From: Microbulbifer halophilus
GTDB taxonomy: Bacteria > Pseudomonadota > Gammaproteobacteria > Pseudomonadales > Cellvibrionaceae
DNA length: 64,000 nt
Assembly (NCBI RefSeq): GCF_026183675.1
Contig: NZ_JAPIVK010000002.1
Coordinates: 43,765 to 107,764 of the forward strand
Reading direction: 5' to 3'
The notes under the pieces were generated by a model. That model did no database searches, was not told the origin of the DNA, and saw only the letters and a program-made list of their open reading frames with translations. The translations under genes were made by a program, and so were the position numbers. Positions 9,283 to 59,252 of the stretch are shown one piece after another. The stretch's first letter is position 1. Every line of letters begins with the position of its first letter.

Positions 9283-9394
9283 GGCACTGCTGCCGGTGGC
9301 CCTTTGCGGGACACGCCGTAAATACATCCCTGTAGGCTTGTCGGCGAGGTCCCTCTCGCCAACAGTCCCGCAAAGGGCCACCGGCAGCAGTGCC
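9283..9394 (-). repeat. Long-hairpin element, copy 2 (reverse)
   Basis: The arms 9283-9312 and 9365-9394 are perfect 30-bp complements around a 52-bp core. The core is the reverse complement of the copy 1 type: its end begins ACGCCGTAAATAC and its inner hairpin lies next to the right arm. The element sits inside the mre operon, between mreC and mreB, and pairs tail to tail with copy 3. Confidence 0.88.
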
Positions 9395-9474
9395 TTAGCT
9401 TTGTACTTTCGCAGTTCTTTTCACACTCTTCATCCACGATCAGGGTGGGTAGAACACGAAAGTCCAATGCAAAA

Positions 9475-9586
9475 GCCCTGGTACCGGGATTCATTTGCGG
9501 GACTGTCTGCGAGAGGGACCTCGCGGACAAGCCCCCATGGATGGGTTCACGGCGTGTCCCGCAAATGAATCCCGGTGCCAGGGCCG
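9475..9586 (+). repeat. Long-hairpin element, copy 3 (forward)
   Basis: The arms 9475-9504 and 9557-9586 match at 28 of 30 positions around a 52-bp core that begins TGTCTGCGAGAGGGACC. Its stem middle (GGATTCATTTGC) differs from that of copy 2 (GGTGGCCCTTTGC), although both stems are self-complementary. It lies 80 bp from copy 2 and 35 bp downstream of the mreB stop codon. Any mreB-mreC transcript must contain both hairpins. The whole 9181-9621 gap is explained by the two elements and their tails. Confidence 0.88.
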
Positions 9587-14623: not shown

Positions 14624-15466
14624 ATGACCTCCAACCCGGTACACGGTGTCGATGCGCTGATGCGAGGCGCCCGGCTGCTGACAAGGCGGGAGCTGCGCCC
14701 GTTTATCATCATCCCGCTGCTGATCAACCTGGTGCTGTTCGTCGCGCTGACGGCGATCATGCTGACCCAGATCGACGGACTGGCGGAATACCTCGGCAGC
14801 CTGTTGGCCCACGAGCCGGTCAACACGGAAAACATGTCCTGGTGGGAATCCCTGATGGCCAGGGGCGCCGCCTGGGCCGCCAACGTTATCCAGTGGCTGG
14901 CTTGGCTGATCGCCATTTTAGTAGTGCTGTTTTTCCTGTTCGTCTACGGCTACCTGTTCGGCATCATCACCAATATCATCGCCGCGCCCTTCAACGGTTT
15001 CCTGGCGGAGAAAGTCGAGGAACTGCTCACCGGCAAGGCGCCACCGGCGGAAACCATCGGCAGCATGGTCTGGCGCACACTGGGGCGGGAGCTGCGCAAG
15101 CTGCGCTACTTTATCGGCTGGGGCCTGGTGGTGCTGGTGATTTCCCTGTTCACCAGTTGGACGGTGTTTATTCCGGCGATACTGACGGCACTCTGGGGCG
15201 CCTGGTGCATGGCGATTCAGTATGTCGACTATCCACTGGATAACCACCAGCGGCCCTTCGACGAACTGAAGAATGTGTTATTGCGGCGCAAATTCACCAC
15301 GCTCGGTTTCGGCGGTGCGGTGATGCTGGCAAAGATGGTGCCGATACTGAACATTTTTGTGATGCCGGCGGCGGTGGCCGGCGGTACGGCGCTGTGGATT
15401 GAGCGGCTACGGCAGGAGGGGGATCCGGGGACGGATTCGCAATCCACTGAATTGCAAAACCGATAA
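14624..15466 (+). CDS. cysZ: CysZ-type sulfate transporter
   Basis: CysZ (EI24 superfamily) is an inner-membrane protein supplying sulfate for cysteine synthesis. The 280-aa protein has four or more long hydrophobic segments (about residues 26-48, 85-115, 163-188, 235-260). It carries the family block FGIITNIIAAPFNGFLAEKV and the signature AIQYVDYPLDNHQRPF. The tail after residue 262 is polar. The start is preceded by a GAGCGGAG-type ribosome binding site. No other cys gene is nearby, so the assignment rests on the sequence alone. Confidence 0.9.
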   Translation: MTSNPVHGVDALMRGARLLTRRELRPFIIIPLLINLVLFVALTAIMLTQIDGLAEYLGSLLAHEPVNTENMSWWESLMARGAAWAANVIQWLAWLIAILVVLFFLFVYGYLFGIITNIIAAPFNGFLAEKVEELLTGKAPPAETIGSMVWRTLGRELRKLRYFIGWGLVVLVISLFTSWTVFIPAILTALWGAWCMAIQYVDYPLDNHQRPFDELKNVLLRRKFTTLGFGGAVMLAKMVPILNIFVMPAAVAGGTALWIERLRQEGDPGTDSQSTELQNR

Positions 15467-15561
15467 CCGGCGGATCCACTCCGTTCATGTAGGGGCGAAC
15501 CTTGTGTTCGCCCTGTTTGTTTGTGGCACTTTGGGCGGGGGCTGTAAGAGAACTCAGAGGC

Positions 15562-15673
15562 GGCCCTGCTACCGGGAGCTACTTGTGGGACACGCCGTAA
15601 ATCCATCCCTGGAGGCTTGTCCGCGAGGTCCCTCTCGCAGACAGTCCCACAAGTAGCTCCCGGTAGCAGGACC
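15562..15673 (-). repeat. Long-hairpin element, copy 4 (reverse)
   Basis: The arms 15562-15591 and 15644-15673 match at 29 of 30 positions around a 52-bp core of the conserved type. Its arm sequence (ACCGGGAGCTACTTGTGGGAC) is the same as that of copy 1. It is followed by the tail CTTCGCATCGACTCCAC, which copy 1 carries in inverted form on its left. Confidence 0.88.
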
Positions 15674-15749
15674 TTCGCATCGACTCCACTATTCTTTTCA
15701 CGCCCCCCCCCGGTTCGGAGCCCAATAAAAACTCCAAAGCCGATGCGAA

Positions 15750-15874
15750 GGCGCTGATACCGATAGCGGTTTGCCAGACCTTATGAGACAGGGATGTCGA
15801 TTAGAGCGTACAGGGACGTATTCACAGGGGGGCGCCTAGCCCGTGTCTGGCAAACCGCTATCGGTAGCAGTGCC
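15750..15874 (+). repeat. Long-hairpin element, copy 5 (forward, 65-bp diverged core)
   Basis: The arms 15750-15779 and 15845-15874 match at 28 of 30 positions, but the stem (ACCGATAGCGGTTTGCCAGAC) and the core differ from the other copies. Only ACAGGGACGTATTCAC of the core is recognisably shared. The inner hairpin is lost and the core has grown to 65 bp. Confidence 0.8.
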
Positions 15875-15977
15875 GCCACCGAATCTGCTTAGTCGCACCA
15901 ATGGAGGCCGGGTGCCACAAACAAACAGGGCGAACACAAGGTTCGCCCCTACGATAGATTGAGCAGTTCGGGGAGGG

Positions 15978-17486
15978 TTAAACCGCCCCCTCCTCAATCT
16001 TCGCCTTCCAGATCAACGGCCCGGTCTGGTGCACCGATTCGCCCTGGCTATCCACAGCCACGGTCACCGGCATATCCTCCACCTCGAACTCGTAGATGGC
16101 CTCCATGCCCAGTTCCGGGAAGGCCACCACTTTCGAGTCCTTGATCGCCTGGGCCACCAGGTAGGCAGAACCACCGACGGCCATCAGGTAGACAGCCTTG
16201 TTGTCGCGGATCGCCTCGATCGCCGCCGGGCCGCGCTCGGCCTTGCCAATCATGCCCAGCAGGCCGGTCTCTTCCAGCATGGTGCGGGTGAACTTGTCCA
16301 TGCGGGTGGCGGTGGTGGGGCCGGCCGGGCCCACCACTTCCTCGCGCACCGGCTCCACCGGGCCCACGTAGTAGATAAAGCGGCCGGCCAGATCCACCGG
16401 CAACGTCTGGCCCTTAGCGAGAAGGTCGACCATCTTCTTGTGCGCTGCGTCGCGGCCGGTGAGCATCTTGCCGTTCAGTAGCAGGGTGTCGCCCGGCTGC
16501 CAGCTCTGCACATCCTCGCGGGTCACCTCGTCCAGGTTAACGCGGCGGGTATTGCCGCCGGCCTCGCGGGTGATCTCCGGCCAGTCTTCCAGCTTCGGTG
16601 GCGTCTGGCGCGCCGGGCCGGAGCCGTCCAGGGTGAAATGCGCGTGGCGGGTGGCGGCGCAGTTGGGGATGATGGCGACGGCCTTGTTGGCGGCGTGGCT
16701 CGGGTAATCTTTTACCTTCACATCCAGCACGGTGGTCAGACCGCCCAGGCCCTGGGCGCCGATACCCAGCTTGTTGACCCTGTCGTACAGCTCCAGGCGC
16801 AGCTCCTCGGCGCGATTGGCGGCGCCGCGCTCCTGCAGATCCTGGATATCGATCGGATCCAGCAGGGATTCCTTCGCCAGCAGCATCGCCTTCTCGGCGG
16901 TGCCGCCGATACCGATGCCCAGCATGCCCGGCGGGCACCAGCCGGCACCCATCTTCGGCACCATGTCCAACACCCAGTCGACCACCGAGTCGGACGGGTT
17001 CAGCATCGCGAACTTGCTCTTGGCCTCGCTGCCGCCGCCCTTGGCCGCCACATGCACCTCGACGGTGTTGCCCGGCACGATTTCGTAGTGGATTACCGCC
17101 GGGGTGTTGTCGCCGGTATTCTTGCGGGCGCCGTCCGGGTCCTCGAGGATGGAGGCGCGCAGCACATTGTCCGGATGCTGGTAGGCCCGGCGCACGCCCT
17201 CGTTGACCATGTCGGTCACGCCCATGTCCGCGTCCCACTGCACATTCATGCCCACTTTCAGCTTCACGGTCACGATACCGGTGTCCTGGCAGATGGGGCG
17301 GTGGCCCTGGGCGCACATGCGTGAGTTGATCAGGATCTGGGCCATGGCGTCCTTGGCCGCCGGGTTGGCCTCTTTTTCATAGGCCTTGTCCAGGGCCTGA
17401 ATGAAATCCTGCGGGTGGTAATAGGAGATGAATTGCAGTGCGTCGGCGACGCTGTCGATCACGTCATCCTGGCGAATAGTGGTCAT
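15978..17486 (-). CDS. fumA: Class I (iron-sulfur) fumarate hydratase
   Basis: This enzyme interconverts fumarate and malate in the TCA cycle, using an oxygen-sensitive [4Fe-4S] cluster. The 502-aa protein carries the class I signature CAQGHRPICQDTG (two of the three cluster cysteines), the glycine-rich GGGSEAKSKFAMLNPSD and the C-terminal beta domain with MDKFTRTMLEETGLLGMIGK. I place the start at ATG 17486 (MTTIRQDD). The open frame extends 45 codons further upstream, but those residues are not family-like. The Shine-Dalgarno sequence is weak (GGA close to the ATG). It is a monocistronic gene with repeats on both sides. Confidence 0.96.
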   Translation of the reverse strand: MTTIRQDDVIDSVADALQFISYYHPQDFIQALDKAYEKEANPAAKDAMAQILINSRMCAQGHRPICQDTGIVTVKLKVGMNVQWDADMGVTDMVNEGVRRAYQHPDNVLRASILEDPDGARKNTGDNTPAVIHYEIVPGNTVEVHVAAKGGGSEAKSKFAMLNPSDSVVDWVLDMVPKMGAGWCPPGMLGIGIGGTAEKAMLLAKESLLDPIDIQDLQERGAANRAEELRLELYDRVNKLGIGAQGLGGLTTVLDVKVKDYPSHAANKAVAIIPNCAATRHAHFTLDGSGPARQTPPKLEDWPEITREAGGNTRRVNLDEVTREDVQSWQPGDTLLLNGKMLTGRDAAHKKMVDLLAKGQTLPVDLAGRFIYYVGPVEPVREEVVGPAGPTTATRMDKFTRTMLEETGLLGMIGKAERGPAAIEAIRDNKAVYLMAVGGSAYLVAQAIKDSKVVAFPELGMEAIYEFEVEDMPVTVAVDSQGESVHQTGPLIWKAKIEEGAV

Positions 17487-17613
17487 TTCCGGCTCCGATT
17501 GGCATCTCGAGGCGGGCGATTTTACACGATTTGTGGGGTTATTGGCGGGGATTGCATTTGCCGGTGCCCGATACAAAAACCGGACCCCGATTGGAACCTG
17601 CGCCAGTGACCGG

Positions 17614-17650
17614 GGCCACAAACAGAAAGGGCGAGCACAAGGCTCGCCCC
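17614..17650. repeat. GGGCGA...CGCCC mini-palindrome
   Basis: GGCCACAAACAGAAAGGGCG followed by AGCACAAGGCTCGCCCC resembles the 41-bp repeats at 15489 and 15912, and the related copies at 202-240 and 42392-42469. It is a dispersed short palindrome just downstream of the coiled-coil gene. Confidence 0.7.
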
Positions 17651-38696: not shown

Positions 38697-41600
38697 CTAC
38701 GGGGTCGTCACTTCCAGGTTCGCGTCGGTACTGACGACCGAGGTGCCATCTTGGAACGTTACATCTGCATTGATGGTCACAGTACCGTCGGCTACCCCCG
38801 TTGCCACACCTTTCGAATCATCCTCGTTGCTGATGTCGGCGATGTCTTTGTCGGTAGTGTGCCAAAGCACTTGATCCGTTAAATCCAGCGTGGTTCCGTT
38901 GCTGAAGGTGCCGATTGCGGTGAACTCCTGCTCTTCGCGCACTTCCACCGAGGGATTGACCGGCGTCACCTCGATCGACTGGAGTTCCGTGTTCGTCACC
39001 GTCAGTGTCGTGCTCTTGCTGACCACCGAGCCGTTTTGGCGCATGAAATCCGCGGCGATGGTCGTCGAGCCACTGTCTATCGTCGTTGCTAAGCCTTCCG
39101 AACCCGCCGGCGCGTTGCTGATCGTGGCGACGTCCGGAGTGTCTGAGGTCCAGCTCACCTGGCCGGTTATATCCTGCGTGGTTCCGTCGCTGAGTTGACC
39201 GGTGGCCGTGAATTGCTGATCGAAGAGCGCCGACACCGAGGGATTTTCGGGCGTCACTGTGATACTTTGGACTGTTGCCGGCGTCACTGTCAGCGTCGTA
39301 TTGCCGCTCACTCCACTATTTTTCTCGCGGGCCGCAATGGTCGTGGTACCGGCGGCACGAGGTATCGCCTTGCCCTGAAGATCCAGCACGTTGTCGGTGC
39401 CGATGACGGCGACACCCGTGTCAGACGAGGACCAGTCCACCTGCGTGGTTAAATCCTGCGTGCTGCCGTCGCTGAAGGAGCCGGTGGCCGTAAATGTCAG
39501 CTGCAAGCCCAGTGCCACCGAGGGGTCGGACGGCTCCACGAGGATTGCCTCGAGCTCCGCGTCCGTTACCGTCAGCAGTGCCTCGCCGCTGACTTGGTTG
39601 CCGCTGGCCGAGTCCATGGTCGCGGAGATGGCCGCCGTGCCTGTGGCTTGCGCCGTTGCCTGGCCCTCGAAACCCGGCGCATGGTTCACCGTGGCAACAC
39701 CTTCGTCAGACGAGGCCCAGCTCACTTGGCCGGTTATATCGTGCGTGCTGCCATTGCTGAAGATGCCGGTTGCGGTGAACGGCTGCTGCAAACCCACCGC
39801 CACCGACGGATTGGGCGGCGTTACCTCGATCGTCTCGAGTTCCGCTGCCGTCACCGTCAGTGTCGTGTCGTTGCTCACCTCACTCTCGGGCTCGAGGGCC
39901 ACGATGGTCGTTGTGCCTTCGCTATCGGTCGTCGCCCAGCCATGCGAACCGTCGTCGTTGCGAATGGTGGCGACGCCCGTGTTGGACGAGGACCAGGTCA
40001 CCTGGTCGGTTATTCTGTGCGAGCTGCCGTCGCTGTAAAAGCCGGTGGCGTAGTACTGCTGCTCGAGGCCCTGCGGCAGCGAGGAGTTTTCCGCATCTAT
40101 CTCGATCGACTGGAGTTCCGCCGCCGTTACCGTCAGCGTTGCCTGGCCTTCGATCTCGGTGCCGACATCCGTATAAAGGGCCCGGATGATGGCGGTGCCT
40201 TCGGCAAGAGTCGTGGCCAGGCCGTCCGATCCCTGGGCGTTGCTGATGGTGGCGACGCCCGTCTTGGACGAGGACCAGATTACCTGCTTCGCCTCCGTCA
40301 AATCCTGCGTGCTTCCGTCGCTGAAAACGCCGGTGGCGACAAACCTATATTGCAGGCCCAGCGGCACCGAGGGATTGAATCGCGATACCTCGATCGACTG
40401 GAGCTCCGCGTCTGTCACGGTCAGTGTTGTATCGCCGAACTTCGTGTTGTCCTCGGTCACGATAAGCGCGGAGATGGTCGCGGTGCCCTTGACCAGGGTC
40501 GTTGCCAGACCCTGCGAAGGCGAGGTGCTGCTGATCCTGGCGATATCGTCGTCGGACGAGGTCCAGGTTGCCTGTTCGGTTACATCCAGCTGGGTGCCGT
40601 CGCTGAAGGTGCCGGTGGCCGTGAACTGCTGTTCGAAACCTGCCGCTACCGAGGGATTGGCGGGCGTTACCTCGACCCTTGACAGTTCCGCTGTCGTCAC
40701 CGTCAGCGTTGTCTGGCCGACGACCTCCTGGGTGCCCACATCCTGATACCGGGCCCGGATGATCGTGTTGCCTTTGCGATCAGCCTTGGCCAGGCCGTCC
40801 GATCCCTGGGCGTTGCTGATGGTGGCAACTCCGGTGTCGGACGAGGACCAGATCACCTGCTCCGTCAAGTCCTGCGCGGTTCCGTCGCTGAAGAGGCCCA
40901 TGGCCGTAAACCGCAGCTCGAAGTCCATCGGCAGGGAGGGATTGGGCGGCGTCACTTCGATCGACTCGAGCACCGCCTGGGTCACCGTCAGCGTGGTCTC
41001 GCCGCTGACGGAATCGACGCTCGCGGAGATGGTGGTCTCGCCGCTGGCCACCGAGGTTGCCAGGCCTTTGGAACCGGAATCGTTGCTGATGGTGGCAACG
41101 CTCGTGCTGGACGAGGACCAGCTCACTTGCGTGGTCAGATCCAGCGAGGTGCCGTCGTCGAAGAGACCGGTGGCGGTGAACTGCTGATCGAAGCCCTTGG
41201 CCACCGAGGGGTTGGTCGGCGTTACCTGGAGCGATTCCAGTTCTGCCTCGGTGACCGTCATCTCTGCCTCGCCGCTGATCGAGTCGATGCTCGCGGAGAT
41301 GGCGGTGGTGCCCTCGGCTTCGGCCGTTGCCAGGCCTTCGGAGTCGTCATCGTTGCTGATGGTGGCGACGCCTTCGTCGGAGGAGGCCCAGGTCACCTGG
41401 GTGGTCAGGTCCTGCGAGGTGCCGTCGTCGAAGATGCCGGTGGCGGTGAATTGCTGGTCGAAGCCGGCCGCTACCGTGGGGTTGTGGGGGGTCACGCCGA
41501 TGGATTCGAGCACCGCGTTCGTCACCGTCAGGGTGGTGTCGCCGCTGATCGAGCCCAGGCTCGCGGCGATGGTGGTGGTGCCCACGGCCAGCCCCGATGC

Positions 41601-42170
41601 CAGGCCCTTGGAGCCGGCCTCATTGCCGATGGTGGCGATCTCCGTGTCGGAGGAGCTCCAGGTCACCAGCTCGGTCAGGTCCTGCTCGCTGCCGTCGCCG
41701 AAGATACCGGTGGCGGTGAACTGCCGCTGGAAGCCCATCGCCAGCGATGGGTTGCTGGGGGTCACCTCGATGGTTTCGAGGTCCTCGGCGATTACGGTAA
41801 ACGAGGCCTGCGCGGTCAGGGGCTGACCGCCCTGCCGATTGAGCCTCGCGGAGATGGTGGTGGTGCCGCGGGACCGGGTTTGCACCAGCCCGCTGTCCAC
41901 CGTGGCAATGTCAGGATCGGAAGAAGACCAGACTACGAAGTTGGTGACGTCCCGCTGCAGGCCGTTGTTGAATGTGGCGGTGGCCCTGAGTTGCCGACTG
42001 TCGCCCAGCCTTGCCGCGGCCGGATCGGGGGTGACCGACAGCCCGGTCAGCCTGGTGCGCTCGCCACCGTCGTGGTGGCTACTGCCGTCACAGGCGGACA
42101 GCGCGAATACGCTGAGCAATGCGGCCGCGCGGATAATCCAGCGCCAACCGAAATCCCTTTCTCTCTTCAC
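38697..42170 (-). CDS. Surface lipoprotein with 12 bacterial Ig-like (BIG_2) repeats
   Basis: The 1157-aa protein has a lipoprotein signal (LLSVFALSAC, acylated Cys27) and an Asp/His/Ser-rich linker. It then has twelve repeats of 85-100 residues, each opening with a form of IEVTPxNPSVAxGF, continuing QQFTATGxFSDGTxQDLT and WSSSDTGVATISN, and closing TTLTVT. This is the Ig-like group 2 fold seen in invasin/intimin-type adhesins and cell-surface proteins. There is no catalytic domain, no C-terminal anchor and no secretion-system domain, so it is probably displayed by its lipid. Adhesion or spacer function is inferred. The gene shows 260-290-bp imperfect DNA repeats, so copy number may vary between strains. 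Confidence 0.88.
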   Translation of the reverse strand: MKRERDFGWRWIIRAAALLSVFALSACDGSSHHDGGERTRLTGLSVTPDPAAARLGDSRQLRATATFNNGLQRDVTNFVVWSSSDPDIATVDSGLVQTRSRGTTTISARLNRQGGQPLTAQASFTVIAEDLETIEVTPSNPSLAMGFQRQFTATGIFGDGSEQDLTELVTWSSSDTEIATIGNEAGSKGLASGLAVGTTTIAASLGSISGDTTLTVTNAVLESIGVTPHNPTVAAGFDQQFTATGIFDDGTSQDLTTQVTWASSDEGVATISNDDDSEGLATAEAEGTTAISASIDSISGEAEMTVTEAELESLQVTPTNPSVAKGFDQQFTATGLFDDGTSLDLTTQVSWSSSSTSVATISNDSGSKGLATSVASGETTISASVDSVSGETTLTVTQAVLESIEVTPPNPSLPMDFELRFTAMGLFSDGTAQDLTEQVIWSSSDTGVATISNAQGSDGLAKADRKGNTIIRARYQDVGTQEVVGQTTLTVTTAELSRVEVTPANPSVAAGFEQQFTATGTFSDGTQLDVTEQATWTSSDDDIARISSTSPSQGLATTLVKGTATISALIVTEDNTKFGDTTLTVTDAELQSIEVSRFNPSVPLGLQYRFVATGVFSDGSTQDLTEAKQVIWSSSKTGVATISNAQGSDGLATTLAEGTAIIRALYTDVGTEIEGQATLTVTAAELQSIEIDAENSSLPQGLEQQYYATGFYSDGSSHRITDQVTWSSSNTGVATIRNDDGSHGWATTDSEGTTTIVALEPESEVSNDTTLTVTAAELETIEVTPPNPSVAVGLQQPFTATGIFSNGSTHDITGQVSWASSDEGVATVNHAPGFEGQATAQATGTAAISATMDSASGNQVSGEALLTVTDAELEAILVEPSDPSVALGLQLTFTATGSFSDGSTQDLTTQVDWSSSDTGVAVIGTDNVLDLQGKAIPRAAGTTTIAAREKNSGVSGNTTLTVTPATVQSITVTPENPSVSALFDQQFTATGQLSDGTTQDITGQVSWTSDTPDVATISNAPAGSEGLATTIDSGSTTIAADFMRQNGSVVSKSTTLTVTNTELQSIEVTPVNPSVEVREEQEFTAIGTFSNGTTLDLTDQVLWHTTDKDIADISNEDDSKGVATGVADGTVTINADVTFQDGTSVVSTDANLEVTTP

Positions 42171-58768: not shown

Positions 58769-58830
58769 AGTTCTTACTCCAGCCTCCAGCGTATTTGTAC
58801 TCGCCATTCAACTATCTACTTATTAATACG

Positions 58831-58944
58831 TGCATAAGTAGCCCGACATGAAATTTCAGACACGCTGTGAATACATCCGTGTACGCTCGTAATCGGCATC
58901 CATGCCTCATACGGTCCGAAATTCCATGTCGGGCTACTTATGCA
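58831..58944 (-). repeat. Long-hairpin element, copy 8 (reverse, diverged)
   Basis: The arms 58831-58861 and 58914-58944 match at 29 of 31 positions with a private stem (AAGTAGCCCGACATGAAATT). The core is again exactly 52 bp and starts ACGCTGTGAATACATCC, close to copies 2, 4 and 6. The rest of the core has changed and the inner hairpin is not obvious. The tails are not recognisable. Confidence 0.75.
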
Positions 58945-59252
58945 CTCCTTAGTAAGGTCACCGTGGCAAATTCTGGCTATGCGAGGCGGCTAACAAGCAT
59001 ACGCGGTTTGATACAACCGCCCAGCATTTATATCGTGGTCGTGACGACCAATATCCCCTGCCTCATATCTCAATTGAGACAAGTTGACTAAGAATGCGCT
59101 GCAACACCCGCACCGTCAATCCTCCAGATCAATTGGTACTTTTGTACATCTCTGTAAAAACGATCATTGCGCCTCATATCCCCTTTTTCAGGTACTTCCA
59201 GTAAGCTATTTATTCTAATGACTTTTTACATGATCGGGCGTCTGTGGCCAGG
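58945..59252. other. AT-richer intergenic stretch upstream of the integrase remnant
   Basis: I find no protein of recognisable family in these 308 bp. If the neighbouring integrase came from an integron, its attI and first cassettes would lie here, but I cannot identify an attI or attC site. Confidence 0.4.

Follow-up and report, generated by a model that had tools for sequence, protein, structure and literature searches.

The gap between the converging genes for cysZ and a fumarase in Microbulbifer halophilus is filled by a block of 464 bases whose two ends are the same sequence in inverted orientation; the question raised by this locus is what kind of element the block is and how its ends came to be identical. 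The analysed stretch (the window; 64,000 nucleotides) lies in contig C22 of the source genome (G000; 4.66 Mb, draft, 109 contigs), which was compared with other Microbulbifer genomes (G017, G036 and G041), G017 being the closest relative found. The block is described here as a REP doublet with a structured spacer and as a putative bidirectional terminator, which was probably flipped in place between its ends.

Anatomy of the block

The arms of an exact inverted repeat (41/41 bp, 15489–15529 and 15912–15952) are separated by 382 bp and enclose two hairpins, A and B, which lie tail to tail and 76 bp apart (15674–15749). The earlier note had described two complete tail-to-tail hairpins at this distance inside a perfect 41-bp inverted repeat, and both coordinates and order were confirmed. 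Arms are 97% complementary in hairpin A and 93% in hairpin B, and the predicted fold of the whole block is much more stable than that of 100 shuffled sequences (z = −17.5 as ssDNA, z = −16.9 as RNA). The features are as follows.

14624–15466, plus strand: cysZ (EI24/CysZ); stop 22 bp ahead of the block
15489–15529, plus strand: left end, made up of a GTAG REP (15489–15513; stem GGGCGAAC/GTTCGCCC, loop CTTGT) and a T-rich tail; terminator-like for cysZ
15530–15561, plus strand: left subterminal stretch with the half-unit border gtaagagaactcagaggc, like the borders before many other genomic copies
15562–15673, plus strand: hairpin A; 30-nt arms (15562–15591 and 15644–15673), 52-nt core, inner hairpin at 15618–15643
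15674–15749, no strand: 76-bp centre joining the hairpin tails (ttcgcatcgac...ttcttttc and a mirrored gccgatgcgaa)
15750–15874, minus strand: hairpin B; 30-nt arms (15750–15779 and 15845–15874), core of a different subfamily
15875–15911, minus strand: right subterminal stretch
15912–15952, minus strand: right end, the same 41-mer; REP at 15928–15952; terminator-like for the fumarase gene
15978–17621 (start putative), minus strand: fumarase (Fumerase and Fumerase_C domains); stop 25 bp from the block

A half-unit consists of a border (e.g. gtaagcaaactcagtggc), a hairpin of 112–125 nt and a tail (ttcgcatcg...ttcttttc), and the tails of the two half-units meet; A and B are two core subfamilies of the hairpin. 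The core of hairpin B in the block carries a 14-nt insertion that the G017 copy lacks; insertions like GGCTAGGCGCCCCC recur at the same place of the core in different hairpin copies (hairpin B of the window, at columns 35–48 of the hairpin alignment, L022 and L118).

Further repeats were observed in the window. Its start (1–243; L130 4473–5010) lies in a REP-ended composite between converging genes, in which both half-units are of type A and the ends are degenerate, and at the same site G017 keeps one B half-unit. Copies 2 and 3 of the hairpin (9283–9394 and 9474–9585) form a tail-to-tail pair, both of type A, with no recognisable GTAG REP ends. Of other kinds are a separate 43-nt inverted repeat (58819–58956; 86% complementary) and direct repeats, mostly 270–288 bp apart, within a long minus-strand gene (38772–41867).

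REP ends and repeat family

Each end of the block is a 25-nt GTAG-type REP palindrome, GTAGGGGCGAACCTTGTGTTCGCCC, with a T-rich tail. In line with the GTAG REP superfamily, the palindrome is short and GTAG-ended, occurs in two exact copies in the block and is found in many, mostly intergenic copies, gene position having been checked for 22 REPs only. With up to 3 mismatches the outer 25-mer has four matches in the window, two of them within the block (0.00 expected, 100 shuffles). A 62-base query with the REP end gave 46 matches in G000 at E up to 10, several of them inverted pairs; exact palindromes number 24 in G000, 15 in G017, 79 in G036 and 22 in G041, and the same REP is found in a record of Microbulbifer sp. 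YPW16. The two inverted REPs of the block fold together, as in a REPIN or REP doublet; the spacer of 382 bp lies outside the 20–100 bp given for most REP dimers (PMC3733652). Outside the genus the exact 25-mer was found in many phyla; it occurs in at least 120 stretches, mostly of other phyla, and among those listed 42 of 47 head-to-head neighbour pairs span 54–126 bp end to end. REP pairs about 113–115 bp apart with inward GTAG ends were also seen in contig C1 of G036 (e.g. 1267245/1267358 and 2441440/2441555).

A search of G000 with the block returned at least 67 matching pieces (40 of 146 candidates scored). Full-length composites, the block included, number four in G000 among the matches listed and four in G017, which additionally has one double hairpin without recognised REPs; in all eight the order is REP, hairpin, inverted hairpin, inverted REP. 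All of 14 double composites from four or more genomes are tail to tail, 12 being A-B and 2 A-A, a share that is biased upward for A-B by retrieval with an A-B query. Hairpins also occur singly, outside composites. A B-type hairpin lies in G017 in the gap between gatB and the next gene upstream of cysZ (L114, about 907–1159), and the same gap in G000 is without it.

For the hairpin alignment, 53 hits were reduced to 33 distinct copies, of which 31 (all from G000) were aligned; L022 and L129, with unclear bounds, were omitted, and L020 and L025, with longer arms, were kept despite being slightly out of register. Standard pairs fill 94.3% of cells, and double changes were observed in 167 cells vs 44.8 in shuffles (0 of 500 shuffles reach 167; slid versions 9–27). 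This strong covariation indicates that the arms change together.

A known RNA family was rejected as an identity for the block: Rfam gave six matches in 15300–16100 at E up to 1, all under the gathering scores. Carriage by plasmids or phages was likewise rejected, with no block match there at E up to 1e-5 and no exact match of REP plus tail in viral contigs.

Position at gene ends and predicted termination

At both ends of the block a stem-loop of the intrinsic-terminator type (9-pair stem, loop of 5) is followed by a T run, which in the tail GTTTGTTTGT is broken by a G. A terminator scan of 15300–16100 returned three sites, against a mean of 0.7 in shuffles (sd 0.9); the block ends, pointing inward, account for two of them, and the third is a weak site in hairpin A. 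Among 22 distinct REPs in the G000 loci examined (up to 3 mismatches, duplicates removed), 20 have a called upstream gene, which is on the same strand in 18 cases; 14 of these 18 lie 12–28 bp past the stop codon. Downstream of these 22 REPs the share of T is 55–73% at every one of the first five positions; over 9 nt, T accounts for 103 of 198 bases past the REP vs 48 of 198 ahead of GTAG. For at least 148 exact REP occurrences, mostly from other phyla, the share of T in the first five positions is 28–42%.

Flanking genes could be classed for 27 of 32 hairpin stretches (three without a class, two called inside genes), genes being called by a home-made hexamer score and degenerate REPs counted as REPs. 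Stretches with an end REP lie in convergent-gene gaps at 9 of 12 sites, those without a REP at 1 of 15 (one-tailed hypergeometric about 4e-4; three site pairs are G000/G017 orthologues, so that the sites are not all independent). Most REPs found between converging genes of two other species lie within 20 bp of both 3′ ends, according to PMC3733652, which makes the position of the block one already known for REPs.

Judged by position, orientation and tail, the block is a putative bidirectional terminator, in which each REP with its T-rich tail would serve as the intrinsic terminator of one converging gene. A flip of the block would leave the predicted termination intact, because both ends are the same.

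Inversion relative to G017

In G017 the block lies at the same cysZ–fumarase junction but is turned around, with flanks collinear with those of G000. Aligned after flipping, the two blocks are identical at 425 of 444 positions (20 gap columns), compared with 296 of 439 (30 gap columns) in direct orientation, and the direction switch falls at or within the 41-mers. The arms match at 41/41 positions in G000 and at 39/41 in G017.

The junction had been proposed as a place to look for an empty site in relatives. cysZ is present in all 48 genomes of the genus; a fumarase gene was found beside it in three (G000, G017 and G036) and not in the other 45 (about 1.5 kb of flank, downstream side only in 18 genomes). 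The junction of G036 holds a remnant, one REP and the apparent foot of a half-unit followed by a 226-aa open frame before fumarase. The search thus yielded an inverted block and a remnant, and no exact empty site. Rather than being present with unchanged ends in all relatives, the block is inverted in one and truncated in another, and other loci are without the composite. Use of G036 to polarise the inversion was abandoned, since by eye the remnant fits both half-types.

The earlier note had observed that the ends are alike and the interior diverged, and had suggested recent homogenisation of the ends. The contrast holds at this block. As a general trait of the family it failed: over 11 double-ended loci, mean similarity was 0.700 between the two ends of a locus and 0.695 between ends taken from separate loci of one genome (shuffle p = 0.28), and concerted end evolution as a family rule was rejected. 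Identity at the cysZ–fumarase block thus calls for a local event. Recent homogenisation is supported, and the inversion seen in G017 gives it a likely cause in recombination or template switching.

The explanation that we hold to be probable is that the block, a head-to-head GTAG REP doublet whose spacer carries the diverged half-units A and B tail to tail, was flipped in place. Since G000 and G017 diverged, its interior would have undergone one turn, or some odd number of turns, with respect to the flanks, by an exchange between the inverted ends through either homologous recombination or polymerase template switching, and the same kind of event can leave both ends identical. Two papers provide precedents, both of which fit the flip and the identical ends of the block: IS elements are turned around in situ when their 23-bp ends recombine, and conversion makes these ends identical (Ling and Cordaux 2010, PMC3004938); template switching homogenises arms and inverts spacers (Abraham and Hazkani-Covo 2021, PMC8604942).

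Several observations count against this explanation. The two assemblies form a single clean inverted pair, and the second composite present at full length in both G000 (C29:24092) and G017 (C1:717179) has the same orientation in the two (353 of 433 positions identical directly, 280 of 432 flipped). Homogenisation of ends is not general over loci, and the 382-bp spacer is far longer than the few-base spacers of template switching in yeast. A further double hairpin, orthologous between G017 (C7; L118 1741–2091) and G036 (C1, 4.61 Mb; L381 1763–2101), has its A/B order reversed (250 of 335 positions identical flipped, 213 of 328 direct); it was rejected as a second proven inversion, having no REP ends and a spacer that aligns poorly, and any flip there used other repeats, since REP ends are missing.

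Mobility and transposase evidence

According to the alternative that fares best, a RAYT-type enzyme moves the whole REP-bounded unit as a non-autonomous transposon, and the reversed orientation reflects re-insertion; we consider it possible and on balance doubtful. The earlier note had likewise proposed a mobile unit of about 460 bp, whose ends might be what a mobilising enzyme recognises. In favour of such a unit the family is multi-copy, and of the six sites at which G000 or G017 has a full-length composite, two are shared and four are occupied in one genome only (C29:18577 and C29:74440 in G000; C16:48178 and C1:209999 in G017). The sites compared differ beyond the insert, however: where the composite is missing, relatives also differ in neighbouring bases. 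One REP-like hairpin is retained at C29:18577 in both G017 and G041. At C1:209999 a REP-like hairpin stands alone in G036, and G041 combines a REP-like end with one hairpin. For C16:48178 the left flank alone matched G000. Composites confined to one genome show gain or loss, not transposition.

No target-site duplication abuts the block, and of the eight composites, the block included, seven are without an abutting direct repeat, G000 C29:74440 alone having one of 4 bp. Against a mobile unit stand, besides this missing duplication, the failure to find an exact empty site and the occurrence of hairpins singly; re-insertion in reverse at the same base is also less simple than inversion.

As to an enzyme, GTAG REPs are the substrate class of TnpA-REP/RAYT enzymes according to a section of PMC8266576, which makes recognition of the ends plausible. 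Among 57 stretches of the genus with Y1_Tnp genes, none contained the REP (6 mismatches allowed) or the hairpin, and no cognate REP-flanked RAYT gene was found in them; flanks were about 1.5–2 kb (shorter at contig ends), the four G000 genes and some others were counted twice, and more genes were listed than examined. Of these four Y1 genes in G000, two are IS200-like (one with a stop) and one is a long solo gene; another, L124 (C29:67005), is a frameshifted RAYT-like Y1 gene that contains, and is accompanied by, copies of a different palindrome, GAGCTGGAGCTCGGC. Outside the genus, four of the stretches listed for the exact 25-mer have a transposase-like hit, and in two of these the 25-mer is an in-frame part of that gene and encodes GEHKVRPY.

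L162 536–1231: REP-transposase-like gene bearing the 25-mer, deltaproteobacterial MAG
L275 3829–4590: REP-transposase-like gene bearing the 25-mer, Geobacter argillaceus

Both proteins resemble the REP-associated tyrosine transposase family NCBIfam NF047646 (70.5 and 47.1 bits, cut-off 80), and their Pfam Y1_Tnp matches are also under the cut-off. Mobility of the block, with past spread by a transposase of the REP type, is plausible and unproven.

Unusual similarity of the block between species

After flipping, 19 of 444 bases of the block differ between G000 and G017 (96% alike), compared with 60 of 304 fourfold sites of cysZ and fumarase (about 80% alike; Fisher p about 2e-11) and with 80 of 433 bases in the shared C29:24092/C1:717179 composite (about 1e-11). 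Of 112 positions, 101 are identical in one further shared single hairpin and 91 in another. Whole-sequence identity in each 100 bp of the fumarase flank is 85–97%, and it is 90 and 93% in the 100 bp adjoining the block on its two sides; the block is thus unusual when set beside silent sites and other copies, and not when set beside coding sequence. A simple old inversion does not account for the identity of the block, which counts against the flip. Family-wide constraint would not explain it either, given the lack of conservation in the other full-length copy; constraint confined to the cysZ–fumarase locus could be the cause.

It is also conceivable, and in our estimate unlikely, that the block is an exchangeable terminator cassette, swapped whole and in either orientation wherever converging genes have REP terminators, and across species as well. 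Such exchange, if true, would explain the placement at gene ends, the flip, the identical ends and the 96% of the block against the roughly 80% of fourfold sites; the case comes from one locus.

That the interior was flipped by a short-read assembler at a perfect repeat in one of the genomes is improbable. In its favour are the draft state of G000 (109 contigs) and the exactness of the 41-bp repeat there; against it, the arms in G017 differ at 2 of 41 positions, so that shorter words resolve them. Repeats of 41 bp are also shorter than the usual read length, which counts against an artefact.

Separate insertions of the composite at the same site in opposite orientations are very improbable. 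The unit is indeed multi-copy with symmetrical ends; against this, the G000 and G017 blocks have locus-specific subterminal sequence in common and are 96% alike, whereas other pairs among the eight composites reach 73–89% in the better orientation, and the G036 junction retains a remnant.

A programmed invertible switch (phase variation) worked by a site-specific recombinase, to which the differing orientation in relatives and the perfect end repeats might point, is hardly credible, as a simple sigma-70 scan found no promoter-like site in 15300–16100 and flipping would alter little between two ends of the same terminator-like sequence.

Relation to known systems

Flipping in place between the REP ends, the explanation favoured here, would combine components that are all of known kinds: GTAG REPs, REP doublets, structured spacers and inversion at short inverted repeats. 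Like the GTAG REP dimers and REPINs treated in PMC3733652 (Di Nocera 2013) and PMC3116915 (Bertels and Rainey 2011), the block has outer GTAG ends, head-to-head units and a place near converging 3′ ends, and dimer spacers with stem-loops, as in the block, are also among the material of PMC3733652. Unlike them it has a 382-bp spacer whose two long hairpins belong to a separate repeat family; the spacers of most dimers in PMC3733652 measure 20–100 bp. The word 'inversion' is absent from the main text of PMC3733652.

Inversions of IS elements, as far as the cited part of PMC3004938 goes, resemble that of the block in the flip in place, the ends made identical and a sufficient homology of 23 bp, but an IS has a transposase gene and the block is a gene-less REP doublet. 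Template switching (the portion of PMC8604942 concerned) shares with it the homogenised arms and inverted spacer; the yeast cases differ in being coding sequence with spacers of a few bases. The Pseudomonas REP-like units in the corresponding section of PMC3733652 are alike in that degenerate GTAG-1 units are joined to unrelated stem-loops, with hundreds of such GTAG-1/stem-loop units in the P. putida and P. fluorescens genomes. They are unlike the block in being inverted repeats that flank transposase genes, and section 16 of that paper has no doublet with two half-units.

No prior description was found, in the open-licence literature at title and abstract level, of a long double-hairpin unit that is bounded by REPs and flipped from one species to another at a fixed site. 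The usual picture of REP doublets is one of tiny mobile hairpins; the present doublet has a long structured spacer and is flipped between two species. Identical ends are what a flip in place predicts, and the rate and route of REP-mediated inversion thereby become testable. The block suggests one route by which bacterial repeats may be kept palindromic while their interiors diverge.
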